Of a stretch of 64,000 bases of DNA, positions 39,114 through 58,644 are shown piece by piece. Numbering within the stretch: position 1 is the stretch's first letter; the number at the start of each line of letters is the position of its first letter. The notes beneath the pieces were generated by a model, which was given only the letters and a program-made list of their open reading frames with translations, was not told where the DNA came from and searched no databases. Position numbers and translations under genes: made by a program. Source of the stretch: an uncultured Clostridia bacterium (GTDB lineage Bacteria; Bacillota; Clostridia; Oscillospirales; Acutalibacteraceae); contig CANQGK010000011.1 of NCBI GenBank assembly GCA_947623175.1, positions 1 through 64,000 of the forward strand. Reading direction: 5' to 3'.

Positions 39114-40006
39114 AACCGAAGTCGTCATTGATAAAAAAACGTGGAAGATACGGCTATTTCTTCATTTTCCCGTTTTTGGTAGGATTGCTGTTTTATTTTA
39201 TTATTCCGCTTATAGGGGCGTTTCGCTTTTCTCTTTCGGAGCTAAAGGTAAACTCTACGGGATATGAGCTCAGCTTTGTCGGCGCGGAAAATTTTCGGCA
39301 TGCCTTTCTTGTGGATACGCAGTTTCGTAAGCTATTGGTTTCCTCTGTGGGAAATATGTGCGTGAATGTTCCGATAACCGTGATTTTTTCCTTCTTTTTG
39401 GCAAGTCTTGTAAGTATGGAGTTTAAGGGAAGAGGCGCGGTTCGCACCATTCTGTTTTTACCGATCATTATTTCTTCGGGAGCGGTTGCAATGCTGACCG
39501 CCGACGATTATATGAGCATCATGATAAACAATTCGGACAAATACACTGCCGCAAATGGCGGTCTTGCGAGCGTATTTGTAAGCACCGTCAGTCAAATGGA
39601 GCTTTCAAGCGGCGTGGTGGATTTCCTTGTGCGCTCTGTAGAAAGAGTTTATGATATTACGGTAATGTCGGCGGTTCCGATTGTAATTTTCTTGGCGGCG
39701 CTCCAATCCGTTCCGGATGCGCTTTACGAGGCGGCATTTATAGAGGGAGCCACAAGGTGGGAGGTCTTTTGGAAGATAAAATTTCCAATGGTAAGCCCGC
39801 ATATATTGGTTTGTCTGATTTACAGCATAGTCGATTCCTTTAACAGCGCCTCCAACGTCGTAATCGCCGATATTAAAAATGTTACCTATATGAAATTCAA
39901 TTACGGTATGGGCGCGGCGATGTCCTTTTCGTATATGGCGATCGTATTGGTTATTTTGGCAATCGTCTATTGGGCGGTTTCGCGTAAAGTCTTTTATAAT
40001 AATTAA
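39110..40006 (+). CDS. Second sugar ABC importer permease, MalF type
   Basis: The 298-residue membrane protein has six helices. An unusual extended loop (about 120-165) after the third helix holds VAMLTADDYMSIMINNSDKY. The EAA motif is YEAAFIEGATRWEVFWKIKF. It overlaps the DUF5696 gene by four bases (ATGA), so the lipoprotein and this importer are coupled. It is clearly different from the permease at 32667, so the operon carries two importers, possibly for different chain lengths or sugars. Confidence 0.92.
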   Translation: MKPKSSLIKKRGRYGYFFIFPFLVGLLFYFIIPLIGAFRFSLSELKVNSTGYELSFVGAENFRHAFLVDTQFRKLLVSSVGNMCVNVPITVIFSFFLASLVSMEFKGRGAVRTILFLPIIISSGAVAMLTADDYMSIMINNSDKYTAANGGLASVFVSTVSQMELSSGVVDFLVRSVERVYDITVMSAVPIVIFLAALQSVPDALYEAAFIEGATRWEVFWKIKFPMVSPHILVCLIYSIVDSFNSASNVVIADIKNVTYMKFNYGMGAAMSFSYMAIVLVILAIVYWAVSRKVFYNN

Positions 40007-40041
40007 GCAAATAAGCAATTTTGGGAAAGGAGCAGATATCC

Positions 40042-40989
40042 TTGAAAAAGGCTGTCAGTCGGGAAATAAACGCAGAAACACGCCGCTACCGCCGAAAACA
40101 GCGCATTATCGGAATTACGATTTCCTTTTTACGCACCTTATTTTTGATCGGTATTTGTTTTACGATTATTTATCCTATGTTATCGCATGTTTTTGCTTCG
40201 TTTATGCCGGCGCGTGATTTTTACAATTCGAATATCAAATATTTACCGAGCTCTTTTGTGCTTGATAATTATAAAAAAGCGGTGCAATTGCTTGATTACG
40301 GTTCAACCCTTTTAAATTCGCTGATTCTTTGCCTGTTAACCTCGGTTTCGCAGGTAATCGTTTGCACTATGGTAGGCTACGGATTTGCGCGGTTTGAGTT
40401 TAAGGGCAAAAGAATATTTTTTATGCTCCTTATATTGGGGCTTGTGGTACCGCCGGATTTGCTGTTAATTCAGCGTATGTTTCAGTTCAAGTTTTTTGAC
40501 CTGTTCGGTGTTTTTAAATTGATAAAGGGCGCTCCGCTTGATTTGCTTAATACGGTTTGGCCCTTCGTAATGCTGGGGCTTACCTGCAGCGGTTTAAAAA
40601 ACGGACTTTACGTCTTTATAATGAGACAGTATTTTATGGGCTTGCCCAAGGAAATAGAGGAAGCGGCTTACGTCGACGGCGCCGGTCCGATAAAAACCTA
40701 TATAAAAGTTATATTGCCGGGGGCTGTTACTAATATCGTGACGATTTTCCTTTTCTCTGTGGTATGGCAGTGGAACGATACGGTATATACGCCGGTTTTT
40801 TACACCGAAAAAAATGTGATTACCACAATGATAAAAATGCTCCCTACAGGAACTATAAGTATGTCATCGGTCAACAGTTTAACAACCAATGCGGGAATTG
40901 TGTTGATTGTTTTACCAATGCTTATACTTTACGTCTTTTTGCAGAATTATTTTGTAAAAGGCGTGGAGCGCAGCGGGTTGGTCGGTTAA
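40042..40989 (+). CDS. Second sugar ABC importer permease, MalG type
   Basis: The 315-residue membrane protein has six helices, a long basic N-terminal tail (REINAETRRYRRKQRI) and the EAA motif EEAAYVDGAGPIKTYIKVIL. AAAGGAG lies nine bases before a TTG at 40042; an in-frame TTG at 40021 precedes the ribosome site and is rejected. It pairs with the permease at 39110 and with the binding lipoprotein that follows. Confidence 0.92.
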   Translation: MKKAVSREINAETRRYRRKQRIIGITISFLRTLFLIGICFTIIYPMLSHVFASFMPARDFYNSNIKYLPSSFVLDNYKKAVQLLDYGSTLLNSLILCLLTSVSQVIVCTMVGYGFARFEFKGKRIFFMLLILGLVVPPDLLLIQRMFQFKFFDLFGVFKLIKGAPLDLLNTVWPFVMLGLTCSGLKNGLYVFIMRQYFMGLPKEIEEAAYVDGAGPIKTYIKVILPGAVTNIVTIFLFSVVWQWNDTVYTPVFYTEKNVITTMIKMLPTGTISMSSVNSLTTNAGIVLIVLPMLILYVFLQNYFVKGVERSGLVG

Positions 40990-41017
40990 AATAAAATAAT
41001 ATTTTGGAGGTTTCTTT

Positions 41018-42568
41018 ATGAAAAACACACGCGTTATAAAAACAGCGGCATTCTTGTTATGCTTACTTCTCATCTTTTCCGCGGTGGGCTGTAAAAAATC
41101 ACCGGGTAAGACCGATGAAATAAGCGAATGGTCATACTACGAGGATTACGAGGACGTTCCGAGCGGTGAGACAAGCAATACCGAAAGCAAAACCGACGGA
41201 AGCTCCGGTACAAATTCCGGAAGCGGCAGTGATAAAACCGGCGGCGGGAAAACCGACAGCGCCGGAAAATCGGGCGGCAAAACCATGTCAAGGGAGTTTT
41301 TGAACTCTTTAAAAGGTATGACTATCAATATTACCGATTTGTATAAGGACGATATTCCGCAAAAGGGTACCGCAATCGGCAATATGTATTTTGCAAACCT
41401 TAACAAGGTCGCCTCGAAATACGGCGTCACCATAAATTATAAAGTTACAAATCTGGATCAGGCGGCATTGCAGGCGTCCTTCCTTGCCGGAAATCCGGAG
41501 GTAGACGTTTTCACCTGCCAGGATTATTATTTCCCCTCATATATTACCTCAGGAGCCTGCGCCGATTTGACCTCGGCTATGAAAACTCTGGGCTTAAACC
41601 TTAAAGAGGATTGGTACGATTCAAACGTCACCTCGCTTTATAACATCAACAATAAGCAATATGCTTACGCCAACGGCACACGCGACGTTTTAATGATCGC
41701 TTACAATAAACGCATAATAAGCGAGCACGGCTTAACCGATCCGTATACCCTCTACGAAAAAGGTCAATGGAATTACGATAAGCTTGCGCAGTACGCGGAA
41801 ACCATTCTTACCAAATCAAAGGACGGCTCGACGCAGGTTTGGGGCTTTATGGCTCCGAGCGCACAGACGCTTTTTGAGATGCTTGCTTACAACAACGGCG
41901 GCGCGCTCATTAATATTAAAAACGGCAAGTTCGATATAGGCTGTATGAGCGACTCCAAAACAATACAGGCGCTCAACTATTTCCATGATTGGTATGTCGG
42001 CAATAAAATTATTGAAATAGGTATGACTACCTGGCAGGAACCGTACGATACCTTTATCGCGGGCAAAATCGGTATGTTTTTGACGGGCGACTATTTGTTC
42101 AGCCGCATTCAGGAAAAGGGCGGCATGTCGGATACCATAGGCATCGTGCCTTTCCCGAAGGGACCTTCCGGCTCCAAAACAAACGAGGCTTATATGAACT
42201 GCTGGCCCACGGCTATCGTTAAGAGCCGCGAAAAGGACGCCGCCAAATACCTTTATATCATGAATGAATTTTATAAGCTGCAATACGAACAGCAGGCAAC
42301 CTACTGTAAGACAAAATACGGCTCCGTAATCAGAGACACAAAGGCTTATCAAGCTTATTATAAGCGCTTGACAAATGCGGTAAAAATGGATTTGACCTAC
42401 ATGAAGGCCTCGGGTACTATTTTCGAGGATGGCGGATATATGGGATTTACTATGGCGATTTTCGCAAACAATCAAACCCCGAGCGCCGCCGTCAGCGCAT
42501 ACAAAGGCGTTATTCCGAATGTAATAAAGGATATTTGGGGCAACTCGAAATTCACCGGCTTTAATTGA
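41018..42568 (+). CDS. Sugar-binding lipoprotein of the second importer
   Basis: The 516-residue family 1 solute-binding protein has a lipoprotein signal (LLLIFSAVGC, Cys at about 25). A Ser/Gly/Thr-rich flexible linker (about 45-90) follows, then a two-lobed binding domain (NPEVDVFTCQDYYFPSYITS, YAYANGTRDVLMIAYNKRII, GKIGMFLTGDYLFSRIQEKG, WPTAIVKSREKDAAKYLY). GGAGG precedes the ATG. It would capture oligosaccharide for the permeases at 39110 and 40042. Unlike the binding protein at 29866 it has a normal lipid anchor and no extra domains. Confidence 0.92.
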   Translation: MKNTRVIKTAAFLLCLLLIFSAVGCKKSPGKTDEISEWSYYEDYEDVPSGETSNTESKTDGSSGTNSGSGSDKTGGGKTDSAGKSGGKTMSREFLNSLKGMTINITDLYKDDIPQKGTAIGNMYFANLNKVASKYGVTINYKVTNLDQAALQASFLAGNPEVDVFTCQDYYFPSYITSGACADLTSAMKTLGLNLKEDWYDSNVTSLYNINNKQYAYANGTRDVLMIAYNKRIISEHGLTDPYTLYEKGQWNYDKLAQYAETILTKSKDGSTQVWGFMAPSAQTLFEMLAYNNGGALINIKNGKFDIGCMSDSKTIQALNYFHDWYVGNKIIEIGMTTWQEPYDTFIAGKIGMFLTGDYLFSRIQEKGGMSDTIGIVPFPKGPSGSKTNEAYMNCWPTAIVKSREKDAAKYLYIMNEFYKLQYEQQATYCKTKYGSVIRDTKAYQAYYKRLTNAVKMDLTYMKASGTIFEDGGYMGFTMAIFANNQTPSAAVSAYKGVIPNVIKDIWGNSKFTGFN

Positions 42569-42600: not shown

Positions 42601-45600
42601 ATGAAGAATTATAAAAAGACAGTTTCGCTGATAATGGCTTTTTGCATCCTGTTGAGCAGTTTTTCTGTAACTCTTTTTGTCGGCGCGCAAGGCGCCTCGG
42701 ATTATACCTCCGTTTGCGATTTCGGTCGGTATGCTTTGCCGTCGGGCGTTTCGGCGGTTGACGGTAAGAAGGATGAATTATACCTCGGCAGTGACAGCTC
42801 GGACGAGGGGCTGTCATTAAAGCTGATTGCAAAAGGAACAAACAATTCGCGTTTCGCCGGCGTTACGTTTGACGCAAAACAAGGGGAGCTTAGCGGTACG
42901 GGCATTTCGTTTTGGATGGAAAGCGCCGACGCGGGACTCGGCGGTGTAGTCGCTTTGCGATCTACCGATTCTACAGGTAAAGAAAAATGGTTCAGGACTC
43001 GCGGCGGCGCCGACGGTGCGGCAAAGCCGTTTTCAAGCTTTAAAACCGACGGGAAAATTAAGATTTTATACAGCGAGCTTCGCTTTGTCGAAGATTGGCA
43101 AACCCTGTCGGCAGACGATGCCGGCGCCGCTCCCTCGGAGAGCGATATTATAAATTTCGATAAAATAGCCGTCGGCGTTTATCTGCAAGCGGATTCACCC
43201 GACAAGATAGTATATTTTGATACGGTTTCGGCGCTTTCTGAGTTCGGAACCCCGAGTGAAACTCCCGTGGACGTTATGACCTTCGACGATTTCGACGAAG
43301 TACCGGCTTTTGTTGCCTCCGGATACGAATCCGACGCAATTTCGATAGAGAAAAACGAGAAGATCGATTCGGGCAATGCCCTTAAGGTTTCCTCGGCGGC
43401 GAACGGTACGACGCATCTTTCCTACGTCTATTTTTCCCTTAACAGGGGAGAGCTGTACGGGAGCGGACTTACCTTTAAAATGAAGGGCTCATACTCCGAT
43501 ACCTGGGGAAATGTAGCAATGCACGCAACCTATTCGGACGGTACTCAAAAATGGTTCACCCTTATGGGGCAGTACGGCAATCCCGCATTGATCCTTAATA
43601 CCGGGAACAACGCTCTTGATCCTTTTGACGTCACCTTTAATTTTTCCGATTTGTATCAGGTGGCGGATTGGCGCACAAGCATCGTTTCGGGAACCGAAGC
43701 GAGAGCTACCGCCGAGGATATCGCCGCTTTCGACGGATTTGCCATAGGCTACTACATATGGGACGCCTGGAGCGGTATTAAACCCTTCTATGTCGACAGC
43801 GTTCGTCTGTTGGGCAAGATTAATGCGCCCGTTGTGGACGATACGCTCGAAAATTTCGACGAAGGCGACGCATTGCCCGCCGGCGTGAGCGGCACGTCCG
43901 AAGACGACGTAATTTCTCTGTCGCGCGAGTTTTCATCAAAAAACAATTCTCTGAAAATCGCCGCAAAGGGGAACAGCAGCAGTCATATTACCGGTATCAC
44001 GATTCGGAAAAATAAGGGCGATTTTACGGCAACCGGAATTTCTTTCTGGATGAAGGGCCCCGATACGAATACATGGGGCGCCGTTGCAATGCACGCCTCA
44101 TACCCCGACGGCAGCGAAAAATGGTTCAAAACCAACGGTCAGTATGACAACCCCGCTTATATTATGAACCAGGGCGACGGATCCGCTTTTAACGTTTCCG
44201 TAAATTACGCCGACTTGCATGAGGTCGGCAATTGGATTACCGGTATTCCCAACGGAACGCCCTCGCCCACGGAAGAGGACATAGCATGCTTTGACGCCGT
44301 CGCAATAGGCGTTTATATGTGGGCAAATTGGCCCGATAAAACCGCATATATCGATTCCGTTCGTTTTATCGGTAAAAAGTCGGATCGCTTGGATAAGGAC
44401 ATCGTTTTGTTCGATTTCGGCGATATGCCCGAAGCTCCGGCGGGAGTTTCGGCAGTAGTAGGCTACGGAGATTCGGCGACGCTCGTTATGTCGCCCTCCG
44501 AGGACGGCTATGCTGTAGAGCTTGCGGCTAAAGGAACGCAGGTAAACCGCCTTGCCGCATTACAGTATGAAACCTATTCCGGCAATCTCTACGGTAAGGG
44601 CATTCGTTTCTGGCTGAAAAGCGATCTTAAGAGTGTTTACGGAACCGTGGCGCTTCGCTCAACCGATAATAACGGCGTACAGTCATGGTTTGAGGCGCCG
44701 TTGTCACAGCTTACCTCAAACGGTACCGAAGGCGCCGTCTACGAGTACCTCTACAAGGATTTAGGCAGGGTAGATAATTGGAAAACCGATACGGTCGACG
44801 GCAATTCAAAACCTCCAACGGATCGCGATATTGCAGGCTTTGACTGTATTGTTGTGATTTTACGGATTTCCGCAAACACCGACGCTAAATTTTATATCGA
44901 TACCTTGGGTGTAATTGAAAAGACTTCTGCGCCTTCGTATGAACCCGGTATGATTTACGACTTCAATTCCTTAAACGTTTTGCCGGACAGTATTTCGGTA
45001 TCCGATAAAAAGAATGATAAAATATCACTTTCAACCGAAAATTCTTCCGACGGTAAAGCGCTTAGGCTGGACGCAAAATCGATAGGAGTCACGCATAACA
45101 GCGGCGTTACCTTCGCGGTAGAACGCGGAAGCCTTAACGGAACCGGACTTTCCTTCTGGATGATGAGTCAATATCCCAACACATGGGGCACGGTTGCTTT
45201 CCGTTCGACCGACGTTAACGGAAAATCAAAGTGGTTTAAGATCGACGGCGATTACGACAATCCCGCCGCGATACTTTCAAGCTTTGAGGGCGGATTTACC
45301 TGCACGGTCAATTACGCTAATCTCTATCAGGTTTCGGATTGGCTGACCGCTGTGCCGAACGGTTCAGGAAATCGCCCGACCGCCGCCGATATTGCTGGCT
45401 TCGATATGATCTGCATCGGCTGTTATATGTGGGATGCATGGAAGGATTCGAGCTTCTGGATCGATGATATTAAGGTCATCAATCCGAGCGTACCCACCGA
45501 ATACGTTGACGGCTTGATCGAGGGATTTGACAGCTGCGGGGAAGTACCCGAAGGCATTGTATCGCTTGACGGTAATACCGAGCTTTCGATTTCGGAAGAC

Positions 45601-48027
45601 GGGCAAACTGCCAAATCCTTAAAGCTTACTGCCGCCGCCGGAGAAAAGCGTATATCCGCCGTCTCGCTTGATATAAAGGCAGGAAGCGCCAAAGGAGACG
45701 GATTTTCGTTCTGGCTTGATAACGGTACCGAAAGCATATCCGCCGGAACTGTAGCTCTATTTGTTTCGGGTGAAGACGGCGCGGGGCAGTGGTACCGAAA
45801 AACCTTGGGAGAAAACGAAGCAATCGAGTTTGCGCGTATTTTCCGGAATACAAATACTTCATACACCACCAGAATATCCTATAAAGGCTTTTATGCGGTT
45901 TCGGACGTATTCGGTAAGGCAAGCGAAGAATCTTTAGCGGATATTTCTAAGCTGAGCGAAAAAATAAGCCGCATCGTGATAGGGTTCGAAATTCCCGAAA
46001 ATGCGGAATACAACATAAAAATTGACAATATTGCCGCCGTAAAGGAAGAAGACAATATTATCTGCAGCTTCGATTGGGATAATAAAATTCCCCGGGATTT
46101 TATGATAAGCAACGAAAACGGCGACACCGCGAAAATTTCCGAAGATGTAGCCGCCTCGGTAAATTCACTTGCATTTGACCTGCACGCTACGGGATATAAT
46201 CACAGCGCTTATATCCAAATTCCCTGCGAAAAGGGAGAGCTTGCGGGCGAGGGAATAACCTTTTGGCAAAATTCCTTCAATACGGATCAATGGGGCTCCG
46301 TTTTGGTTCGCTCGACCGACGAAACCGGCGCGACGGCATGGTTTAAAACGATGGGCTCTTACGGTTCGGTTGCATCAATTTGGCGTCAGGGCAGTGCGGG
46401 AGAATCCTGGGTAACCGTTAATTATGCGGATATGCGTGAGGTTGAAAATTGGAGCGACGCCGCTACCGACGTAATGCCCTCTCCCTCAATCGAGGATATT
46501 TTAAACTTCGATACCTTGGTTATCATGCCGTATATTTGGGATCTTAATCCCGACGGTACATGGTACCTTGACAGCATTCAGGTTAAAAATCAATATACCG
46601 AGGATAATATGCCAGAAATTATTCCTTACTCATCTCTCTGGCTTGATGAAACCGAATTGCGCATGGAAGCGGGCGATACCATTACTTTGAGGCCCGGATA
46701 TCTGCCGGCAAACGCAACCGCAACACGCTTAAAATGGGAAAGCGACAACCCCGAGGTAGCTACGGTAAATTCCAGAGGATTTGTAATTGCCGTAAGCGGC
46801 GGATGGGCGAATATTATCGGAACGAGTCAGTCGACGGGACTTTCCGTCAGCTGTCGGATTTACGTTACCGGTACGGACGATAACGAGTATCGGATGCTCG
46901 AATCGTTTGACAGCGGTATTTTAACCGATGAAGTAACCGCGAAGGCTTGCGATGTCAATATGGAATATATTCATACAGGTCATGGAACGGGTATAAATAT
47001 CGCGGCAGGCAAAAACAACGTAAAGCTTACCTATCATCCGAAATCGCCATATCTGTTTTACGGTGACGCATTTGTTTATTGGTCGTTCAACGAAAACGCG
47101 GTGCCGCTTAATATCAGCTTTAAAACGTCGGACGGCAGGGTATTTTCCAAAAGACAAAACTGTCAGCAGTACGGCGAATATAATTCGGTCGTTTATTCCG
47201 ATTTGCGCGATAAATACGGAAAGGCTCCGAATAAGGTCGATATTCGCGAGATATGCGAAATTACATTCGAGCTTCCGAACGGACTCAACGATAAGATCTA
47301 TCTTGACGAATTTAAGGTTTTAAATCCGAGAAATTATCAACCCGTCGGCACGCCGAAAAACGATACGGGTGATACGGGGCTTAAGATCAACGATACCGCA
47401 AATCGCCTTACCGACAAACGCCTTAACGCTTTTGTTTTGGAGCAGGGAACCGACTACGATTGGGCGATAAAGGCGCTTACGGTCAATAATCTTATTGAAT
47501 ATGCCTATGATACGATTCTTTGGGATATTTCTTTTATCGATATGAATTACCGACCGGTAAAAAGCGTCGGCGAAGTTTCGCTTTCATATGAAATTCCGTC
47601 TTCATTTGCAGGCTACGCGGAGTTGTTTGTGGTGAAGATATGTGATAACGGTACGGTGCTTAATATGAATGCAGTAATTTCTGACGGTCACATTTATTTC
47701 AAAGCGGACGAAACCGCCGTATATGCGCTTATAGGCTACGTTGATAGGGTGTCAAAACCGGAAACCGTCGTTACGGATACGGGAATTACCGTTATTCCGG
47801 AGACCGAGATCGATTCGTCCGATAATACAACTGTCGACGAAGAAACAACCGCCGTTAAAAAGCTCAAGCGCCGTAAGGTGGTACGCCGTGTGACGTCCGG
47901 TGAAGAGGAGAACCTAAACGTTCTCGTTTGGGTATTGATTTCTGCCGGAGCTGTGTTTGTTGTGGGCGGCGGCGTTACTGCCGGCATTATAATTCATAAA
48001 AAGAAAAACCGAAAAAGGGGGCGTTGA
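42601..48027 (+). CDS. Giant membrane-anchored surface protein with ~7 repeated beta modules
   Basis: The 1,808-residue protein has a signal peptide (1-32). About seven tandem ~180-200-residue modules follow (about 33-1330). Each has a G-T/S-G-I/L-S-F-W-M block, then W-G-x-V-A-x-R/H-S/A, a K-W-F block, D-I-x-x-F-D and ending Y-I-D-S-V-R. A bacterial Ig-like (BIG2) domain follows (about 1340-1425: LRPGYLPANATATRLKWESD), then one more diverged module, a further domain, and a C-terminal membrane helix (VLVWVLISAGAVFVVGG) with a basic tail. No LPXTG or dockerin. Each module looks like a jelly-roll sugar-binding domain, but I recognise no CBM family. The ATG at 42601 has GGTGGAGG upstream. Surface capture of glycan is inferred. 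Confidence 0.85.
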   Translation: MKNYKKTVSLIMAFCILLSSFSVTLFVGAQGASDYTSVCDFGRYALPSGVSAVDGKKDELYLGSDSSDEGLSLKLIAKGTNNSRFAGVTFDAKQGELSGTGISFWMESADAGLGGVVALRSTDSTGKEKWFRTRGGADGAAKPFSSFKTDGKIKILYSELRFVEDWQTLSADDAGAAPSESDIINFDKIAVGVYLQADSPDKIVYFDTVSALSEFGTPSETPVDVMTFDDFDEVPAFVASGYESDAISIEKNEKIDSGNALKVSSAANGTTHLSYVYFSLNRGELYGSGLTFKMKGSYSDTWGNVAMHATYSDGTQKWFTLMGQYGNPALILNTGNNALDPFDVTFNFSDLYQVADWRTSIVSGTEARATAEDIAAFDGFAIGYYIWDAWSGIKPFYVDSVRLLGKINAPVVDDTLENFDEGDALPAGVSGTSEDDVISLSREFSSKNNSLKIAAKGNSSSHITGITIRKNKGDFTATGISFWMKGPDTNTWGAVAMHASYPDGSEKWFKTNGQYDNPAYIMNQGDGSAFNVSVNYADLHEVGNWITGIPNGTPSPTEEDIACFDAVAIGVYMWANWPDKTAYIDSVRFIGKKSDRLDKDIVLFDFGDMPEAPAGVSAVVGYGDSATLVMSPSEDGYAVELAAKGTQVNRLAALQYETYSGNLYGKGIRFWLKSDLKSVYGTVALRSTDNNGVQSWFEAPLSQLTSNGTEGAVYEYLYKDLGRVDNWKTDTVDGNSKPPTDRDIAGFDCIVVILRISANTDAKFYIDTLGVIEKTSAPSYEPGMIYDFNSLNVLPDSISVSDKKNDKISLSTENSSDGKALRLDAKSIGVTHNSGVTFAVERGSLNGTGLSFWMMSQYPNTWGTVAFRSTDVNGKSKWFKIDGDYDNPAAILSSFEGGFTCTVNYANLYQVSDWLTAVPNGSGNRPTAADIAGFDMICIGCYMWDAWKDSSFWIDDIKVINPSVPTEYVDGLIEGFDSCGEVPEGIVSLDGNTELSISEDGQTAKSLKLTAAAGEKRISAVSLDIKAGSAKGDGFSFWLDNGTESISAGTVALFVSGEDGAGQWYRKTLGENEAIEFARIFRNTNTSYTTRISYKGFYAVSDVFGKASEESLADISKLSEKISRIVIGFEIPENAEYNIKIDNIAAVKEEDNIICSFDWDNKIPRDFMISNENGDTAKISEDVAASVNSLAFDLHATGYNHSAYIQIPCEKGELAGEGITFWQNSFNTDQWGSVLVRSTDETGATAWFKTMGSYGSVASIWRQGSAGESWVTVNYADMREVENWSDAATDVMPSPSIEDILNFDTLVIMPYIWDLNPDGTWYLDSIQVKNQYTEDNMPEIIPYSSLWLDETELRMEAGDTITLRPGYLPANATATRLKWESDNPEVATVNSRGFVIAVSGGWANIIGTSQSTGLSVSCRIYVTGTDDNEYRMLESFDSGILTDEVTAKACDVNMEYIHTGHGTGINIAAGKNNVKLTYHPKSPYLFYGDAFVYWSFNENAVPLNISFKTSDGRVFSKRQNCQQYGEYNSVVYSDLRDKYGKAPNKVDIREICEITFELPNGLNDKIYLDEFKVLNPRNYQPVGTPKNDTGDTGLKINDTANRLTDKRLNAFVLEQGTDYDWAIKALTVNNLIEYAYDTILWDISFIDMNYRPVKSVGEVSLSYEIPSSFAGYAELFVVKICDNGTVLNMNAVISDGHIYFKADETAVYALIGYVDRVSKPETVVTDTGITVIPETEIDSSDNTTVDEETTAVKKLKRRKVVRRVTSGEEENLNVLVWVLISAGAVFVVGGGVTAGIIIHKKKNRKRGR

Positions 48028-48028
48028 T

Positions 48029-50329
48029 ATGCGAAAAAAAATACAAAGCATTATATGTATGGTTCTCTGTGCCGCAATGCTTTCGGCTTGCGGGGGCGGT
48101 GCGAAAACCACCTCGTCCGAACAGACGGAGAGCGGCGGTAAAACGGACAATTCGGTTGTTTCGTCCGAAACCGAAAGTGTCGCAGAGGACGGCGCGTCCG
48201 AGAATAACGGGCAGGTATCATCCGACCAAAAACAACCGTCCGTAAGCGACGTTACCTACGGCGAACAGAGCAATGCTTCAAAAAAGGCGTGGACTAAATT
48301 TGCCGAAAACCGTAAAACCGTTTCAAATCTTCCAAATTACGTATTTAATGAGGATGATTACTCGGATACCGTCATGACCGGCGGAAGCGCGGTACGTGCG
48401 CGTGAATTTGTCCGCGGCGCGGCTTACGGCGCATACCATGCTACCGAGGGTTGGAATCTTTCGGAAAAAACCAAGGCAAAGGACGAAGCCAACTTTAAAG
48501 AGCTGGCGATTATGTCAATCAGAGATTATACCGGCGGATTGAATGTCCAGGGCGGATACGATTATTACAATTCGCTCGGCAGAACTCTTTCGGACACATA
48601 CGCTTTGGATACCGGACAGAGTATTCTCGAAAACGGCAAGCCGGGAGGCCATTTGTGGATAAATCAGAACTCGCTTGAGCAGTGTATCAAAAAGGTGGTC
48701 AACAATCTTTCGCAGATTACCGATACCACCGCAATGGAGGTTATGCTGCTCGGAAACGAGGAGCAATGGAAAAATCAATATATAGATGAAAACGGCGTAT
48801 GGACAGGACAATATTATGATTCCGGTTTCGATCCCGAGACCTTAAGCGCTTTCAGAAACAATTGGCTTAAAAACCGCTACGGTAACATTAAAAATCTTAA
48901 TAAGCTGCTCGGAACCGAATATAAAAGCTTTACGGATATAGATCCGAACGACACGATTTGGATAAAAACGGAGTTTTGGCTTTTCAGGCGTACCGTTTTT
49001 GAAGACTTTTATCATAAGCTTTACGACGCGGCTAAAAAGGTAAATCCGCTCGCTAAATTGGGACTTGCCAAATATATCGGCAGAACGCCCGATTCCGATG
49101 ACGTTGCGCTTTCCTTTATGGATTACGGCTGTCAGAATTTGTACGTCGAAGGGTACGGAGACATGTTCTGGTACACCTCCAAAATGGCACAGCTTTACAG
49201 CATTTCGGGCGGAAAACCCTGCTTTAACACCGAAAGCGGCTTCAAAGAGTCAGCCGGCGGAAAGCTTACAAACGACACCCTCGAGCGCGCCGCCAGAAGC
49301 TTCAAGCAATTGATATCGCTTACCTATATGCAGCCGCAGATGCAGGGAATGTACGTTTATCAATATTCGGGTACCGAGGATTTATCGATTGATTTTTCCT
49401 GGGGATTAACCTCTCCGATGCGTGAAAAGCGTCCGGCTTACTATGCGGTCAAGCAGGCGTATAACGATATCAAATATCTCGATACCTTTATGGTAGGCGT
49501 TTCATCATCACCGCTTGTGGGAATTACTCACCGCCTGATAGATCAGCTTTGCGGAAACGGTTCAAACGACAGCGAAGTAATTATGCATCCGCTTTCCACG
49601 ATGGGCGTCGGCGTTACGGTAGTTACCGCCGATGACGCCGCGAGTATCGATAATTTTAAGCTTGACCGTTTGATTTTAAACGATATTGCGCTCAATCAGA
49701 ACCCGGACGGAAGCAACGACGTGGGAACGGCGCTTAAAAAATATTTAGCCGACGGCGATAATAAAATGCTGACCTTTAACCGCAAGGTTCCGTATTCGGT
49801 ATTTAATAAAATTAACGCGTTTACGGCGTCGGATATCGGCAAGCTCACCGCAAAATACGACAATTTCGAATACAAAAACGTTTCCAAAGCGGATTATAAC
49901 AAAACCTGGGAAGTATTGGCGCCCTTTGTTCACGGCGATTTCGTAAACGGCAAGGTTGCCGCGCGTAAAGGCACGCTCAACGAGTCCGCCGTCAGAATAC
50001 TCGATACCTTTACTACCGGCGACAGCGAAAAACGCTGGGATATTCAGCAAAAACTGCTGTATAAAAACGGTCGTATCTATCTTGAACTCGTTAATTGCGG
50101 GGATGAGCCGATCGATCAGATTACAGTCACCCTCGGCGTAAATAAAGGCGTCAATTTCAATCTTCATCCGGAAATGCTCAGATGTGACGGCGCTGTGACG
50201 GTAAGCAAGCCTTCGCGCGCGGTACTGCCCGCATGGACCGACAGCGATGCCGTATCTTACGGAAGTATCGTAATTGACGGACTTGACACCTATGCTTACG
50301 TAGACCTCGGTATGGCGTATGTTAAATAA
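48029..50329 (+). CDS. Lipid-anchored TIM-barrel glycoside hydrolase (clan GH-A-like)
   Basis: The 766-residue protein has a lipoprotein signal (LCAAMLSAC, Cys21), a Ser/Glu-rich linker (22-85) and a TIM-barrel hydrolase. LLGNEEQW puts the probable acid/base at Glu244 and KPCFNTESGF the nucleophile at Glu402. A GH42-like second domain (about 480-610) and a beta domain at the C-terminus follow. The family resembles GH42-type beta-galactosidases but is not assigned with confidence. It begins one base after the giant gene. The product of 58641 is a clear paralogue without the signal and linker. Confidence 0.75.
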   Translation: MRKKIQSIICMVLCAAMLSACGGGAKTTSSEQTESGGKTDNSVVSSETESVAEDGASENNGQVSSDQKQPSVSDVTYGEQSNASKKAWTKFAENRKTVSNLPNYVFNEDDYSDTVMTGGSAVRAREFVRGAAYGAYHATEGWNLSEKTKAKDEANFKELAIMSIRDYTGGLNVQGGYDYYNSLGRTLSDTYALDTGQSILENGKPGGHLWINQNSLEQCIKKVVNNLSQITDTTAMEVMLLGNEEQWKNQYIDENGVWTGQYYDSGFDPETLSAFRNNWLKNRYGNIKNLNKLLGTEYKSFTDIDPNDTIWIKTEFWLFRRTVFEDFYHKLYDAAKKVNPLAKLGLAKYIGRTPDSDDVALSFMDYGCQNLYVEGYGDMFWYTSKMAQLYSISGGKPCFNTESGFKESAGGKLTNDTLERAARSFKQLISLTYMQPQMQGMYVYQYSGTEDLSIDFSWGLTSPMREKRPAYYAVKQAYNDIKYLDTFMVGVSSSPLVGITHRLIDQLCGNGSNDSEVIMHPLSTMGVGVTVVTADDAASIDNFKLDRLILNDIALNQNPDGSNDVGTALKKYLADGDNKMLTFNRKVPYSVFNKINAFTASDIGKLTAKYDNFEYKNVSKADYNKTWEVLAPFVHGDFVNGKVAARKGTLNESAVRILDTFTTGDSEKRWDIQQKLLYKNGRIYLELVNCGDEPIDQITVTLGVNKGVNFNLHPEMLRCDGAVTVSKPSRAVLPAWTDSDAVSYGSIVIDGLDTYAYVDLGMAYVK

Positions 50330-50388
50330 TAAAACGTTTGTCACAAATACAGTGACCGCTAATAAAAATTAAGAAAGAGGGTTTTTCT

Positions 50389-52392
50389 ATGGCTACTTTT
50401 AAATCCCGCTCGGTTAAAGCGGTAATATCGACGGCAATTTCCGCAGTGCTGTTGATTACATCTCTATTAGTGCCCTTTGCGGTAAATGCGGAAAGTACGG
50501 GCAAGCAATTTTCCGTTATTCAAAACGGATTTTCCGATTCGGTAAATTCCGTCAACGGCGTTTCAAGGCTCGGCTCCGCCTCGGGCGGCGGCGTAACGCA
50601 TTTGAGCGGCTGGGAAATGGCGCTTTCCCGCGGCGACTTTAACGGAAGCGGAGTTTCGTTTTGGATGAAAGGGCCGGCTGCTTCGACTTGGGGGCGTATT
50701 GCGATGCGTTCGACCGACGCCGACGGAAAGAGCACCTGGTTTGTAACCTCGTCCGATTTCGGTAATCCGGCAAAAATTTTAAGCAACAATTCCGGCGCTT
50801 TTAACGTTACGGTGAATTACGAAAATCTCTTTAAAACGACAAATTACGACGCTGTCGTTAACGGCAACGAAGCGCACCCGAACGAATTGGATATCGCCAA
50901 TTTCGATATGATACGCATATGCGTTTTGATTTGGGACGGTTGGAACGCATCCTCATCCTATCTCGGATCCTTTTCCGTTTTGAATTATTCTAAGCCCGAG
51001 AAGCTTACGGAAAACCGTGTCGTTGCCGATTTCGAGAGTCTCGACGGCATATCTACAGATAATAACGTCGTTTCATCCGTTACGCTTTCCGATACGCTCG
51101 TTGATTCGGGAAAATCTTTGCTCGTTTCCGGAAATACCGCGCTTACCGACACGACTCATTTTCTGCCTGTCTTTATCGAAGGAAATGCCGGCGACTTTAA
51201 CGGTACGGCGGTTTCCCTTAAAATACTTTCCGATATAAACAGCGTATGGGATACCTTTGCGGTGCACACCTCCGACGGTAAATGGTATAAATATAAATGG
51301 ACCGATATGGACTACGATTTTCACAGTGCAAATAATTCGCAGAGCCAATCGGGCGCGATAACGGAGCTTAAATTCAGTTACGAATATCTCGTTTATGCCG
51401 ATAATTGGGACAGCGCCGTTTCTAACGACAGCACAAACGTTATAAGCGAGTCGGATATTCCTAAAATAGATAAAATCGTTTTTGCTGTCAGAATTTGGTC
51501 GGGCTGGAACGATTATCCCACATGGTACAACTTTAATATCGATACCGTTAAGGTTCACGATTTCGGAGCCTACGTCAATACCGATACCGTGGTAAAGGAT
51601 TTTGAGACTCTTGACGGCATATCTACAGATGACAACGTCGTTTCATCCGTCACGGTTTCCGATACGGTTATTGACTCGGGTAACTCGCTGCTCGTTTCCG
51701 GAAATACCGCGCTCACCACCGATACGCATTTCCTGCCGGTTTTTATAGCAGGAAAAGCCGGCGACTTTAACGGCAGCGGAATTACGCTTAAGATCAAATC
51801 GGATATACAAGGTGTATGGGATGCTTTTGCCGTACATACGACCGACGATAAATGGTTTAAATATAAATGGACAAACGAGGACCAAACGGCATCCGCCAAT
51901 TGGAGCAGAAGCAATCCGGGTGAAGTAACCCTCCGCACCTTCAAGTACAGTGATCTTGTGCTCGCCGGAAGCTGGGACGGCGCTGTATCATCCGCAAGTG
52001 CGGACGTCATAACCGACGAGGATATTGCAAAAATCGATTCGATCGTTTATGCTGTGAGAATTTGGGCGGGCTGGGATGCGTATCCTACATGGTACAGCTT
52101 CAATCTCGATTCCGTTACGGTTAAGGATTATAAGGCGCCGGTTGCCGAACCCGAAAATGTTACATTTGTCGATTGCGGCGATGCGCCCGTTGCGTATGAC
52201 GCCAACGGTGACGGCACAGTCAACATTATTGATTTTATCCGCCTTAAGAAATTCGTTCTCGAAACCGACGGCGTAGTCGTAAATGCCGTTGCCGCGGACA
52301 TGAGCGAAATATACGATGAGCAACAGCTTTGCGACGGTATTATAAATGCGCTTGATCTTACGGCGCTTAAAAAGGCGCTGCTTAACAGTTGA
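50389..52392 (+). CDS. Dockerin protein with three beta modules
   Basis: The 667-residue protein has a signal peptide (1-36). Three modules of the same type as in the giant protein follow (about 37-205, 210-400, 401-590). Module 1 has the SGVSFWMKGPAASTWGRIAM block seen there; modules 2 and 3 are close duplicates of each other (DFESLDGIS/DFETLDGIS). The C-terminus is a type I dockerin: a canonical calcium repeat DANGDGTVNIIDFIRLKKFV and a second, looser one DGIINALDLTALKKALL. Dockerins dock into cohesins of cellulosome-like complexes; no cohesin is in this window. AGAAAGAGGG precedes the ATG. Confidence 0.88.
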   Translation: MATFKSRSVKAVISTAISAVLLITSLLVPFAVNAESTGKQFSVIQNGFSDSVNSVNGVSRLGSASGGGVTHLSGWEMALSRGDFNGSGVSFWMKGPAASTWGRIAMRSTDADGKSTWFVTSSDFGNPAKILSNNSGAFNVTVNYENLFKTTNYDAVVNGNEAHPNELDIANFDMIRICVLIWDGWNASSSYLGSFSVLNYSKPEKLTENRVVADFESLDGISTDNNVVSSVTLSDTLVDSGKSLLVSGNTALTDTTHFLPVFIEGNAGDFNGTAVSLKILSDINSVWDTFAVHTSDGKWYKYKWTDMDYDFHSANNSQSQSGAITELKFSYEYLVYADNWDSAVSNDSTNVISESDIPKIDKIVFAVRIWSGWNDYPTWYNFNIDTVKVHDFGAYVNTDTVVKDFETLDGISTDDNVVSSVTVSDTVIDSGNSLLVSGNTALTTDTHFLPVFIAGKAGDFNGSGITLKIKSDIQGVWDAFAVHTTDDKWFKYKWTNEDQTASANWSRSNPGEVTLRTFKYSDLVLAGSWDGAVSSASADVITDEDIAKIDSIVYAVRIWAGWDAYPTWYSFNLDSVTVKDYKAPVAEPENVTFVDCGDAPVAYDANGDGTVNIIDFIRLKKFVLETDGVVVNAVAADMSEIYDEQQLCDGIINALDLTALKKALLNS

Positions 52393-52447: not shown

Positions 52448-54688
52448 ATGGAATTTCCGAAACAGTATATTTGTTATGATACCGAAACGGGAGATTTAGA
52501 TAATCCGATTCGCACCCCTTATTTTCGCAGAAAATTCAGATTGGAGCATTTACCGCATTCGGCTGTAATCAGAATTACCGGACTGGGGTTTTACCGATTG
52601 TTTGTTAACGGACAAGAAATAACAAAAGGATATTTGGCGCCGTATATTACCGCGCCCGACAGATTGGTCTATTTTGACGATTATGATGTTTCAAGCCTGC
52701 TTGTCAAAGGCGATAACTGCATAGGCGTTTGGCTGGGAAACGGTATATGGAATAATCCCGGAGGTTATCCTTGGGAGCTTGATAAGGCTCCTTGGAGAGC
52801 CTCGCCGCAATTTGCCATGCGCTTTGAAGTGTCGGGAAGGGAAAATACGGCTTTCGAAACAGACGCTCTTTTTAAATCGGCGCCTTCGCCCGTTATTTTC
52901 GACGATTTTCGATTTGGAGAAGAGTATGACGCGAGACTTGAGGAAGACGGCTGGTCATCCGCCGATTTTGACGATTCGTTATGGCGGCAGGCAGTTCTCG
53001 CAAAAGCGCCGGCGGGCGAAAACGTCATGTGTCCGCTAAAGCCGATTGTAACCGAAGAAGTGTTGGCGCCGGTCAGTATAAAAAAGTTAAACGACAGCTT
53101 TGTTTACGATTTCGGCAAAAACGGCGCGGGAGTATGCGAAATAAAGATAACCGGTTCGCCCGGTCAGCGAATAGAACTGCAATACGGAGAGCTTTTGGAC
53201 GAAAACGGCAACGTACAGCTTAAGCATCAATGGTTTGACGACCGAAAAGGCTTTAACCGCGACGTATATATTTGCCGCGGCAATACGGAAGAAAGACATA
53301 AGGCGCTTTTTACCTATCACGGTTTTCGCTACGTTCAGGTTTACGGCGTTACCGAGGCGCAGGCTGACGAAACACTGCTTACCTATAATTTTATGCATTC
53401 GCAATTGGACGTTTTGGCAGGTTTTGAATGCTCCGACGAAACGGTCAACGCGCTTTTTAATATGACGCGCCGTGCCGATTTGTCAAATTTGTACTATTTC
53501 CCGACCGACTGCCCGCACCGTGAAAAACATGGATGGACGGGAGACGCCGCATTTTCATGCGAACATATGCTGCAAAATCTTTCGGTGGACGAGTATTATC
53601 ATGAGTGGCTTCACCAAATGCGGGCGGCACAGCGCCCATACGGATTAATTCCCATGATTGTTCCGACTGCCGGATGGGGATATCATTCCTCCGTAGGCTT
53701 TGATTATGCCTTGATAGAAATACCCTGGCGGCTTTGGCAATATCGCGGCGATAAAAAGGTAATAGAGGATAACGCCGACGCCATGTGGAGTCTTATGACC
53801 TATTTTGTAAATCATTCGACAATTGACGGCTTCGATGATTACGGCATCGGGGATTGGTCGCCTGTCAATGACAAGCAGTGGGTATATATTTCACCTGTAG
53901 CATTTACAAATACCTTGGTTGCAAAATACGCCTGTGAAAAGGCGGCGAAAATGTTCAAAGTTATAGGGCAAAATCGCAGAGCTGCCTATGCCGAAATGCT
54001 GTCGGGATGGTTTAGGGATAATCTACGCGAAAAAATGATTGATTTTGATACTATGACGGCGAAGGGCGCTTGCGAAACCTCTCAGGCGATGGCGATATTT
54101 TACGGGCTGTTTGAACCGGACGAAATACCGCGGGCGGTCAAAAGGCTGATTGAAATCATTCACGATACGGGCGACGTTATAGATACCGGAATTTTGGGCT
54201 TTCGCGTTATTTTCCATACGCTTACGGAATACGGCTTTTCGGAGCTTGCCTATAGCATGATCACAGGGCCTCGCTCGCCCTGCTTCGGCGATTGGGTACG
54301 CGAGGGGGAGACTACTATGCGAGAGCTGGTTATAGCTCCCGACGACGGAATTTGCTCGCATAATCACCATTTTTGGGGGGATATTTCCGGTTGGTTTATG
54401 CGCGCTCTCGCGGGTATTCGGGTCAACGACTCGGGCGACGATGCGCATCATGTCGATTTGAAGCCGCAGTTTATCAATTCTTTGGATTATGTGAGCGCTT
54501 GGGAAATTACCGTAGACGGCAAACTAAGCGTTGATTGGAGAAAAAACGGAGCGGAGATCCTGCTTACCGTCGAGGTACCGGAGGGTTGTTACGGCAAAAT
54601 TATTCTGCCGAAAAATTATACCTTCGAAAATTTCGAAACCGAGCGGGAGCTTAAAACCGGCAGTTATAAAATTTATGGTAAAGGTTGA
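52448..54688 (+). CDS. Alpha-L-rhamnosidase, GH78
   Basis: The 746-residue protein matches GH78 enzymes, which release alpha-L-rhamnose from plant glycans and glycosides. N-terminal beta-sandwich domains (about 20-320, including GLGFYRLFVNGQEITKGYLA and VWLGNGIWNN) precede an (alpha/alpha)6 barrel. The barrel starts with the signature FPTDCPHREKHGWTGDA (351-367) and contains EIPWRLWQYRGDK. No signal peptide: cytoplasmic. GGAGG lies before the ATG. It suggests a rhamnose-containing substrate for the whole locus, for example rhamnogalacturonan or a flavonoid glycoside. Confidence 0.92.
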   Translation: MEFPKQYICYDTETGDLDNPIRTPYFRRKFRLEHLPHSAVIRITGLGFYRLFVNGQEITKGYLAPYITAPDRLVYFDDYDVSSLLVKGDNCIGVWLGNGIWNNPGGYPWELDKAPWRASPQFAMRFEVSGRENTAFETDALFKSAPSPVIFDDFRFGEEYDARLEEDGWSSADFDDSLWRQAVLAKAPAGENVMCPLKPIVTEEVLAPVSIKKLNDSFVYDFGKNGAGVCEIKITGSPGQRIELQYGELLDENGNVQLKHQWFDDRKGFNRDVYICRGNTEERHKALFTYHGFRYVQVYGVTEAQADETLLTYNFMHSQLDVLAGFECSDETVNALFNMTRRADLSNLYYFPTDCPHREKHGWTGDAAFSCEHMLQNLSVDEYYHEWLHQMRAAQRPYGLIPMIVPTAGWGYHSSVGFDYALIEIPWRLWQYRGDKKVIEDNADAMWSLMTYFVNHSTIDGFDDYGIGDWSPVNDKQWVYISPVAFTNTLVAKYACEKAAKMFKVIGQNRRAAYAEMLSGWFRDNLREKMIDFDTMTAKGACETSQAMAIFYGLFEPDEIPRAVKRLIEIIHDTGDVIDTGILGFRVIFHTLTEYGFSELAYSMITGPRSPCFGDWVREGETTMRELVIAPDDGICSHNHHFWGDISGWFMRALAGIRVNDSGDDAHHVDLKPQFINSLDYVSAWEITVDGKLSVDWRKNGAEILLTVEVPEGCYGKIILPKNYTFENFETERELKTGSYKIYGKG

Positions 54689-55434: not shown

Positions 55435-56994
55435 ATGAAAACCAAAAAAGTCATAAATATTATTAATTTTATTCGCGCGGAGGATCCGCGCGTCGAACAG
55501 CAAATGCTTTACGATACCTTTAAAAATCAAATCGAGCTTTGCCGCGAGTATCCGATGCCCTATACCTTTTTAATGCAGTACGACGCCATCGCAAGGCCCG
55601 AGTACGTTAAACTGCTTAAGGACAACGAAGACGATAAAAATATGGAAATCGGCGTTTGGATAGAGCTTGCCAGAGAGCAAATCGAAAAGGTCGGGCTTAC
55701 CTGGAACGGTCTGCCCGATCGGAAGTGGGATTGGCGCGTTAATCCCGGGATGCTCATGGCATATACGCTTCCTCAGCGAAAAATTTTGATCGACGAGTTG
55801 TTCGAACGCTTTAAAGCCGCGTTCGGTTATTATCCCGAGTCGGCGGGTTCATGGCTTTTAGACAGCTATTCTATCCGTTATATGGCAGAAAAGTATAATG
55901 TAAAAGCCTTTTGTATTTGCAAAGAACAGTTCGGAACAGACGGATATACCCTTTGGGGAGGCTACTGTAATCAGGGATATTTTCCGAGTAAGAAAAATAT
56001 GTTCGTTCCGGCGCAGACAATTGAGGAACAGATTCACGTGCCGGTATTCAGAATGCTCGGCGTAGATCCTATCTATCAATATGATTTCGGTATAGATGAG
56101 CATTACAACCCCGCGCCCCTGCAGCACGTGCTTACTTTGGAGCCTTCCTGGCAGTGCGGTCAAAACCCCGATTGGGTGGAGTGGTATTTACATAACAACA
56201 TGGAAGAGGAAGCGATTTCGTTCTCCTACACTCAGGCAGGACAGGAAAATCCGTTTATGTGGCCGGTATTCGGCGAAGCTCTAAAGATGCAAATGGCAAA
56301 AATCTATGACGGAGTAAAGGCAAAACGCTGGGAGGTCTTAACTCTGCGCGATACCGGTAAATGGTTTACCGAGCGTTATCAAATGACGCCGGCGACCTCC
56401 ATGACCGCCCTTACTGATTGGAAAAACGAGGGCAGACAATCGGTTTGGTTTGACAGCAAACGTTATCGTTTAAATCTGTATACACAAAACGACAGCGTTT
56501 GTATTCGCGATATTTTCCTTTTTGACGAAAATCATCCCGAGCGCTATTGGGAGCATCCGGTAGAAGGCGGCAGCGCGATTTACGACGCTTTGCCTATAAT
56601 AGACGGCTACCGCTGGGGCGGAAACGATGTCCATGCCGCCTGGTATTTTACGCGTCCGGAAACCGGCGAAAAGGCGCAGGCGCAAATTTTCAACGTTTTT
56701 TCGGAAAATGAAAACGAGCTTACGGTACAGCTTAAAGTGGACGGCGAGCCTGTTACGTTTAGATGCTTCGAAAACGGCTTCCGTATCGAGTTTTTAAAAA
56801 CGCTTTTCGGTCTCTCGTTCCGCTATTTTTCACTTGCCGATACCGAAATTACCGCCGTCGATCGGCAAAGCGTCATCTATCGCCACGACCATGCCGAATA
56901 CGGTATGCGGGCGACGGGAGGATATTTTGCGGAAAACAACGGCTTTGATTTGATCGCAAACGAAAAAACGGTGGAAATTGCCTTTTTCAGCTGA
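55435..56994 (+). CDS. DUF3863-like protein, possible sugar-active barrel enzyme
   Basis: The 519-residue protein resembles uncharacterised proteins I remember as DUF3863/DUF3864, common in Bacteroides and Clostridia polysaccharide loci. Features are FLMQYDAIARPEYVKLL, EIGVWIELAREQIEKVGLTW, FGYYPESAGSWLLDSYSIRY and GTDGYTLWGGYCNQGYFPSK, then VFRMLGVDPIYQYDFG and YTQAGQENPFMWPVFGEA. The first ~330 residues look like a deacetylase or GH57/GH38-type distorted barrel, followed by a beta domain. No signal peptide. Function is unproven; position among GH78, SGNH and GH38 suggests oligosaccharide processing in the cytoplasm. Confidence 0.6.
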   Translation: MKTKKVINIINFIRAEDPRVEQQMLYDTFKNQIELCREYPMPYTFLMQYDAIARPEYVKLLKDNEDDKNMEIGVWIELAREQIEKVGLTWNGLPDRKWDWRVNPGMLMAYTLPQRKILIDELFERFKAAFGYYPESAGSWLLDSYSIRYMAEKYNVKAFCICKEQFGTDGYTLWGGYCNQGYFPSKKNMFVPAQTIEEQIHVPVFRMLGVDPIYQYDFGIDEHYNPAPLQHVLTLEPSWQCGQNPDWVEWYLHNNMEEEAISFSYTQAGQENPFMWPVFGEALKMQMAKIYDGVKAKRWEVLTLRDTGKWFTERYQMTPATSMTALTDWKNEGRQSVWFDSKRYRLNLYTQNDSVCIRDIFLFDENHPERYWEHPVEGGSAIYDALPIIDGYRWGGNDVHAAWYFTRPETGEKAQAQIFNVFSENENELTVQLKVDGEPVTFRCFENGFRIEFLKTLFGLSFRYFSLADTEITAVDRQSVIYRHDHAEYGMRATGGYFAENNGFDLIANEKTVEIAFFS

Positions 56995-58065: not shown

Positions 58066-58644
58066 ATGCTTAAAGACAAATTGAAATTTTTATATGACGA
58101 GAAACGGCTTCGTATAGGCGTACTCGGACTCGGACGCGACGGTTGGCAGCTTGCCTGCCGCATGGCTATGTTCGATTTTCCGAGCCTTGGGTATACGCTT
58201 CGTCCCGAAATTGCCGAAACGACTAATAACGGTGTAAATTATTTACATGACGCTACGGTGATCGACGATCCCGGTACGGTACGCTCAAAATTGGTTTTCA
58301 AAGGATTGCTTAACGGTACTACAGATTTATTTTCCGCGATACACCGGGATATTGTTTTTGTATGCGTTTCGGATTTGGCGGACGAATACCGCAAGGATTA
58401 CAAAACCGCATTGAAGCTTTATACGGAAGCGATAGGCGCGGCGCTTCGCCGCTATGCGGTTTTGGTATTTTTAACGAATGACGACGATACCTTTGACAAA
58501 GAAGCCGTTATCGCCGAGCTTTGCAGGCTTTCGGGGTTGGACGGCGGCAAAGATTTTTTCGTGGGAGAAATTTCGGAGTCTCGTGCACACGCGGAAGATG
58601 CCGCGGCGCTTTTGCGGGATATTATCGAGGGAGTTAACATATGA
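58066..58644 (+). CDS. Rossmann-fold protein, like the N-terminal half of UDP-sugar dehydrogenases
   Basis: The 192-residue protein starts with a nucleotide-binding strand-loop-helix IGVLGLGRDGWQLA (GxGxxG, about 17-30). It continues with the pattern of UDP-glucose/UDP-mannose dehydrogenase N-domains: NNGVNYL, then NGTTDLFSAIHRDIVFVCVS, then AVLVFLTNDDD and DFFVGEISESR. The middle and C-terminal domains and the catalytic Cys are missing (192 against about 430 residues), with no remnant downstream, so it is a shortened or specialised form rather than a broken gene. GGAGG precedes the ATG at 58066. It overlaps the next hydrolase gene by four bases. Confidence 0.6.
   Translation: MLKDKLKFLYDEKRLRIGVLGLGRDGWQLACRMAMFDFPSLGYTLRPEIAETTNNGVNYLHDATVIDDPGTVRSKLVFKGLLNGTTDLFSAIHRDIVFVCVSDLADEYRKDYKTALKLYTEAIGAALRRYAVLVFLTNDDDTFDKEAVIAELCRLSGLDGGKDFFVGEISESRAHAEDAAALLRDIIEGVNI

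Follow-up and report, generated by a model that had tools for sequence, protein, structure and literature searches.

A repeated CBM11-like module in two neighbouring proteins of an uncultured Clostridia bacterium, a probable glycan-capture pair

Two proteins, A and B, encoded close to each other on a 64,000-nucleotide stretch of DNA from an uncultured Clostridia bacterium (the window), contain copies of the same module of approximately 180 residues. The locus raises the question of what this module is and what two such proteins could do with it. An earlier note had proposed about seven tandem copies in A and three in B, belonging to a carbohydrate-binding module (CBM) family that could not be named. 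Our analysis indicates that the module probably represents a new CBM11-like family, carried by two putative non-catalytic glycan-capture proteins that are encoded beside importers and glycosidases. The features of the locus, with the module copies placed by HMM mapping, are the following.

41018..42568, plus strand: ABC sugar-type solute-binding protein (PF01547, E 4.9e-16), ending 32 bases before the ATG of A
42601..48027, plus strand: protein A, ORF of 1808 aa, ATG at 42601 with GGAGG upstream
42601..42687, plus strand: putative signal peptide of A, from a hydropathy peak that begins at residues 8-11 (boundary by eye)
42703..43239, plus strand: module A1, residues 35-213, R50 class
43273..43818, plus strand: module A2, residues 225-406, H50/W80/W162 class
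43837..44376, plus strand: module A3, residues 413-592, H50/W80/W162 class
44398..44922, plus strand: module A4, residues 600-774, R50 class
44947..45486, plus strand: module A5, residues 783-962, H50/W80/W162 class; the copy modelled with AlphaFold2
45505..46047, plus strand: module A6, residues 969-1149, R50 class
46048..46593, plus strand: module A7, residues 1150-1331, H50/W80/W162 class
46645..46854, plus strand: Big_2 Ig-like domain of A, residues 1349-1418 (PF02368, E 1.6e-9)
47050..47331, plus strand: decayed eighth module, residues ~1484-1577, C-terminal to Big_2 (hhalign and hmmsearch)
47920..47976, plus strand: putative C-terminal membrane helix of A, ahead of a basic tail (hydropathy peaks at 2.35, residue 1774)
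48029..50329, plus strand: lipoprotein-like gene between A and B (weak match to PF02449, GH42, with E 0.009; its 15.8 bits lie below the cut-off of 21)
50389..52392, plus strand: protein B, 667 aa, with a putative signal peptide, three CBM11-like modules and a type I dockerin
50470..50988, plus strand: module B1, residues 28-200
51013..51561, plus strand: module B2, residues 209-391
51583..52131, plus strand: module B3, residues 399-581
52195..52383, plus strand: type I dockerin of B, residues 603-665 (PF00404, E 6e-7)
52448..54688, plus strand: alpha-L-rhamnosidase, directly downstream of B (PF17389, E 3.9e-59)

The proposed copy numbers were confirmed with leave-one-out profiles. Each of the ten modules was recovered in an HMM search by the profile of the remaining nine, with E values (computed with Z = 1000) ranging from 8e-18 for A6, the most divergent full copy, to 1.4e-62 for A5. 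Pairwise identity was 14-44%, with the exception of B2 and B3 (63%), the closest pair, and the modules are therefore diverged repeats, B2/B3 excepted. The sequence blocks described earlier as common to the copies were partly recovered: loosened forms matched in 10/10 modules, several of these matches lying outside the blocks meant, but the literal forms were too tight. G-x-G-[IV]-SFWMKG was present in one module and WGx[VI]AM[RH] in three of the ten, and [YW]xIDSV in none of them.

Protein A consists, in order, of the putative signal peptide, the seven full modules, Big_2, the decayed eighth module, an unassigned region, the C-terminal membrane helix and the basic tail. Big_2 was the sole Pfam family above the cut-off in A. 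The eighth copy scored 33.7 in hhalign, whereas none of 15 letter shuffles exceeded 13.9 and the Big_2 and C-terminal stretches reached 13.3 and 9.0, respectively; with hmmsearch only its last ~40 residues were matched (E 0.1). The dockerin of B passed the gathering score of PF00404 (30 bits, cut-off 22.9). Of its calcium loops, as read by eye, the first is canonical and the second is broken by an insertion. Cohesin matches exist in the same genome, four of them above the cut-off. A Pfam search recognised no catalytic domain in either protein, and a script scan found no LPxTG-like motif. The layout of A and B is that of surface glycan-binding proteins, with export (signal peptides of both) and an anchor (membrane helix of A) as read from hydropathy, or a dockerin, and an adjoining importer gene.

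The module, which the earlier note had called unrecognised, was not recognised by sequence search either: no credible match was found in Pfam, NCBIfam, PADLOC or PDB sequence searches, and a PDB profile search gave only chance immunoglobulin and T-cell-receptor matches, or nothing. Among 16 module rows searched against Pfam at a limit of E 10, where HMMER filters discard most matches above ~0.1, five families other than CBM_11 were listed once each (E 0.039-0.083), CE2_N among them. CBM_4_9 (PF02018) was absent among the Pfam matches of A, B and the module rows. The genome itself has two PF02018 matches, listed without genome positions.

Next, the structure and profile of the module were compared with known families. 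The AlphaFold2 model of A5 is a beta-sandwich (pLDDT 89), and Foldseek gave CBM11 as its best match, the two folds aligning with ~15% identity in the case of CtCBM11; the earlier note had proposed such a comparison with jelly-roll CBMs. VIA-align did not separate CBM11 from other CBM-like folds, and a complex I assembly factor (CIA30), which is not known to bind sugar, was also among the tied folds. In hhalign the module profile matched CBM11 with Prob 96.6 over 162 columns, the whole domain length, and a score of 66 compared to at most 17 in 40 shuffles; one reversal was also used as control. CBM11 was the better of the two profiles compared by hhalign, the other being CBM_4_9 (Prob 14.8). 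W132 and W162 aligned with two tyrosine positions of CBM11, and the aligned CtCBM11 tyrosines may be ligand-contact residues of the cleft. H50 and W80 did not pair with CBM11 aromatic residues in the alignment. The earlier CBM proposal is partly supported, by the predicted CBM-type beta-sandwich, the lack of a credible sequence match and the clear relatives in GH16 proteins. Since the profile-profile and fold comparisons set the module beside CBM11, it is not unplaceable.

The clear relatives found elsewhere are tandem modules in GH16 proteins of one goat-colon Clostridia MAG, RGIG2202 (L028, L075). They matched the window modules in hhalign with Prob 97.0 and score 70.3 over 152 columns. Alone against CBM11 they gave Prob 92.5, but over 55 columns only; a model of one goat module had CBM11 as best match. 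Among the weak goat matches, three come from long proteins with no catalytic domain in the part read. Overall the module was rare in the genomes searched, which comprised overlapping sets scanned by a fast first look and genome contigs scanned by a method that depends on short conserved peptides. One borderline order-level match (G184; E 8e-4 over 64 profile positions; by eye the protein resembles GH26) and two class-level matches at E <= 0.01, to an isoleucyl-tRNA-synthetase-like frame and a protein that by eye looks unrelated, were put down to chance or, at best, a remote relationship. Foreign origin was rejected on composition, as the GC content over A and B (0.46-0.49) lies within the range of the window (0.37-0.50). 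Viral or plasmid carriage was rejected too: three viral-contig scans gave no relative, nor did plasmids searched with a single module, and the eight PHROG matches of A all fell on the Big_2 region, with none for B.

The gene neighbourhood bears on the possible ligand. Judging from the gene spacing, the A-B cluster would be co-transcribed. The product of the gene at 48029, which has a paralogue at 58647 and a lipobox as read by eye, is possibly a clan GH-A glycosidase, on the basis of the weak GH42 match and of catalytic blocks read by eye. The rhamnosidase at 52448 presumably belongs to GH78, and the window also encodes a GDSL esterase, GH38 and sugar-binding importer proteins. One alternative is that the modules are specific for mixed-linkage or other beta-glucan, like CtCBM11, and that A and B form a beta-glucan capture device. 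The choice of CBM11 by both Foldseek and hhalign speaks for this, and so does the attachment of the goat relatives to GH16, to which many beta-glucanases belong. CtCBM11 itself binds beta-1,3-1,4-glucan, according to PMC8612152. However, no beta-glucanase family was found among the window genes scanned (part of the ORFs), and the rhamnosidase, GDSL esterase and GH38 indicate a rhamnose- or mannose-bearing glycan; no enzyme family of the cluster clearly indicates a beta-glucan or mannan backbone. Moreover, CBM specificity shifts easily within the CBM11-like fold, and we regard beta-glucan as an unlikely, though not negligible, answer.

The conserved residues bear on whether the modules bind sugar at all. 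W96 was found in 10/10 modules, and H50, W80 and W162 are kept together in seven of them; A1, A4 and A6 lack the three jointly, so that binding is not required of every copy. The joint loss is only suggestive of a distinct class, because A1 and A4 form a sister pair in the module tree (82/90) and the trio B1, B2 and B3 likewise yields three separating alignment columns. The modules might instead have a CBM-like fold but bind no sugar, serving for adhesion or as spacers, with A as a long stalk or adhesin and B as a structural cohesin-dockerin component. This seems distinctly improbable in view of the residues kept together, the clear relatives that precede GH16 catalytic domains, and the sugar-binding importer proteins and rhamnosidase nearby. 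That the module is a divergent CBM11 member and needs no new family is very improbable despite the full-length hhalign match, as CBM_11 (PF03425) was listed for 0/16 module rows under the limit and filters given above, a CBM_11 search of the own genome was empty at E 1e-3, and identity to CtCBM11 was low.

The glycan-capture reading builds on the observed repeats, homology, CBM11 profile link and dockerin and cohesin matches, and on the predicted fold. A would be exported and held by its C-terminal membrane helix, with the seven modules and the decayed one projecting as a multivalent rod. B would be secreted and recaptured through binding of its dockerin to cohesins that the bacterium anchors on its own surface. 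Each competent module would probably hold one chain in its concave face, where tryptophans may replace the CBM11 tyrosines. A and B could keep the polysaccharide close to the lipoprotein-like glycosidase and the neighbouring sugar importers, and smaller products may be imported for final breakdown in the cytosol, by the rhamnosidase among other enzymes. More tentatively, and falling somewhat short of likely, a CBM family separate from CBM11 may be the sole working part of a clustered two-tier capture system for a rhamnose-bearing glycan. This would combine a membrane rod with two module classes (R50 for another ligand or as spacer) and a dockerin-borne soluble partner.

If true, the two-tier system would parallel the surface glycan-binding proteins encoded in Bacteroidota PULs, here in a probably Gram-positive bacterium, and would add a CBM family missed by the sequence libraries tried. 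The ten natural variants in two residue classes would be a test set for specificity change in a CBM11-like fold. The ligand of this enzyme-free paired capture system would indicate the substrate of the glycosidase/esterase cluster.

Among known modules, CtCBM11 of Clostridium thermocellum Lic26A-Cel5E (PDB 1v0a, 6r31) resembles ours in the beta-sandwich and profile-profile match over the whole length, the ID-type last strand, and aromatics at two aligned positions. Our module differs in its ~15% identity, the lack of a Pfam CBM_11 match, tryptophans in place of tyrosines, and its occurrence in three to seven tandem copies in host proteins without a recognised catalytic domain. The CBM part of the Bacillus JAMB-602 alkaline mannanase (PDB 1wky, residues 341-490), tied with CBM11, had the highest VIA-align Z (15.0, rmsd 2.4), at 14% identity in the alignment and with a likeness from structure comparison. 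The RGIG2202 GH16 proteins share with A and B the homologous tandem modules, and with B a dockerin in the same protein, but have two modules per protein, of ~160 residues, N-terminal to the GH16 catalytic domain.

The earlier note had called it unusual for one operon to display the same module through a membrane helix and through a dockerin. This was not borne out, as Ruminococcus bromii Sca5 and Sas20 provide a precedent (PMC9112005). In contrast to A and B, this amylosome pair has X25-type starch modules, a sortase anchor and cohesins on Sca5 itself, and an operon common to both is not mentioned in the excerpt of PMC9112005. As proposed for B, Sas20 is a non-catalytic binding protein that is secreted and has a dockerin; its domain 2 shares 81% identity with a binding region of Sca5 (residues 491-734). 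Sca5, the anchored member of the pair, is a scaffoldin that carries a sortase sequence.

The repeated module of about 180 residues that had been noticed in two products of the window proved to be real. A (42601-48027) carries seven modules (A1-A7), Big_2 and a putative C-terminal membrane helix, and B (50389-52392) carries three modules (B1-B3) and then a type I dockerin. Over the Pfam cut-off, Big_2 was found in A and Dockerin_1 in B; CE2_N in B stayed below it (14.3 bits vs 27.9). Nothing credible turned up for the modules themselves in NCBIfam, PADLOC or Pfam; in Pfam, five families each appeared in a single row at E 0.039-0.083. All eight PHROG matches of A lay on the Big_2 region, and B had no PHROG match. 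In PDB sequence searches A matched through its Big_2 region and B through its dockerin, B with two additional short chance matches. Module profiles against the PDB returned immune-receptor chains only (E at least 0.33) or nothing, and a literature search on these modules found no paper.

The distribution of the module was examined in overlapping genome sets. A single-module query matched 1 of 60 genomes, namely the module's own genome (GCA_947623175.1). The ten-module profile matched 2 of 295 genomes of the order and 1 of 391 of the class, a 16-row profile 3 of the 391 class genomes at E 0.01, and an 18-row profile 1 of 398 of the phylum. In each of these searches the own genome was judged the sole credible match. 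A pattern scan of genome contigs gave 58 pattern matches and one related locus (L028), in the goat-colon Clostridia MAG RGIG2202:

L028:1071-9944, three adjacent GH16-dockerin paralogues, each with two N-terminal CBM11-like modules

The RGIG2202 genome had 12 module matches at E <= 0.1. Six were in the three L028 proteins (E <= 2e-48; domains by Pfam) and two in a protein of L075 that reads as GH16 with dockerin (E 4e-23 and 7e-14). The remaining four were weaker (E 6e-7 to 6e-4): a GH16-like protein of L079 has one, and long proteins of L077, L078 and L080 have the other three. These last three proteins are truncated at the ends of their loci, and the portions read showed no catalytic domain by eye. 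They are multi-domain proteins in which sandwich-like repeats occur several times, along with Thr/Pro linkers. The C-terminal regions of the first two L028 paralogues are almost identical.

For comparison with CBM11, a CBM_11 search of the class matched 13 of 245 genomes, and eight of the 22 places listed (four strong, four weak) were aligned. In hhalign, 18 module rows aligned with CBM11 over 162 columns (Prob 96.6, score 66.1). The ten window modules alone gave Prob 94.6 and score 53.7. With the goat modules alone (eight rows), Prob was 92.5 and the score 47.9, but the alignment spanned only 55 columns. Window and goat modules matched each other with Prob 97.0 and score 70.3. As E-values from single-template hhalign lack database calibration, we relied on controls: 40 column shuffles scored at most 16.6 and reversal 16.2, while the module rows scored 25.1 against 20 CBM_4_9 rows, and CBM11 against CBM_4_9 scored 29.3. 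Judged by sequence profiles, the module is closer to CBM11 than to CBM_4_9, the two families compared by hhalign. The earlier reading of the modules as a carbohydrate-binding family that the note could not name holds in part: they are likely carbohydrate-binding modules, and the family, new to the sequence libraries tried, is yet placeable as CBM11-like by profile comparison.

In the alignment, W132 stands opposite the Tyr of CBM11 RMDYQPP and W162 opposite that of FMYSN, tyrosines which we take to be ligand contacts in CtCBM11 of Clostridium thermocellum; H50 and W80 stand opposite non-aromatic CBM11 residues. W96 is kept in all ten modules. H50, W80 and W162 are kept jointly in seven copies and lost jointly in A1, A4 and A6. 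This joint loss suggests two module classes, but A1 and A4 are sisters in the tree (82/90), and the trio B1/B2/B3 also gives three separating columns. One study describes surface aromatic residues of a CBM11 as important for binding (PMC12603373).

Between 29857 and 56994, the long ORFs share the + strand and are separated by short gaps. The neighbours of A and B are:

29857-32655, +, solute-binding protein with an extra N-terminal part (Pfam)
32667, +, permease (Pfam)
34462, +, NHL/Yip1 protein
36576, +, DUF5696
39110 and 40021, +, two permease-looking genes (by eye)
41018, +, solute-binding protein (Pfam)
48029-50329, +, lipoprotein-like gene with weak GH42 similarity, between A and B
after B, +, alpha-L-rhamnosidase
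54695, +, GDSL esterase
55435-56994, +, 519-residue protein within the glycan cluster, no Pfam match at E 0.01
58641-60632, paralogue of the lipoprotein-like gene
60669, GH38

The region 29857-42568 apparently holds two sets of ABC sugar importer genes within a single cluster, with DUF5696 and the NHL/Yip1 protein between them; two solute-binding proteins and one permease were assigned by Pfam and some other putative members by eye. The extra N-terminal part encoded by 29857-32655 (about 500 residues) weakly resembles CBM35/golvesin sandwiches, below cut-off, and the product is perhaps a binding protein fused to sugar-binding domains.

The lipoprotein-like product and its paralogue, which has no evident signal peptide, are 36% identical, and by eye the GNE and TE blocks in both look like the catalytic residues of clan GH-A. 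Among 98 other relatives 48029-50329 had no orthologue, the one match there (G028) being short and over the signal region, so at least this neighbour of A and B is also unusual for its genus.

Of five cohesin matches in the own genome four were over cut-off, as were 26 of its 28 dockerin matches, including that of B; one of the 26 passes only together with its neighbours. Four loci (L036-L039) encode short proteins with one cohesin match apiece, and membrane or wall anchors were seen by eye in three (L037, L038, L039). No large scaffoldin was seen in this cohesin-dockerin system. Given anchored cohesin proteins and dockerin matches in the same genome, B could be kept at the cell surface through its dockerin by a putative partner.

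Display of one module in both an anchored and a dockerin protein, which the earlier note regarded as unusual, is not unique. In R. bromii, Sas20 has a dockerin but no catalytic domain, and its domain 2 shares 81% identity with part of Sca5, a scaffoldin with a sortase sequence (PMC9112005). CtCBM11 is described as a type B module with beta-1,3-1,4-glucan as ligand (PMC8612152), and the recent CBM112 is present in enzymes as well as in surface glycan-binding proteins (PMC13357471).
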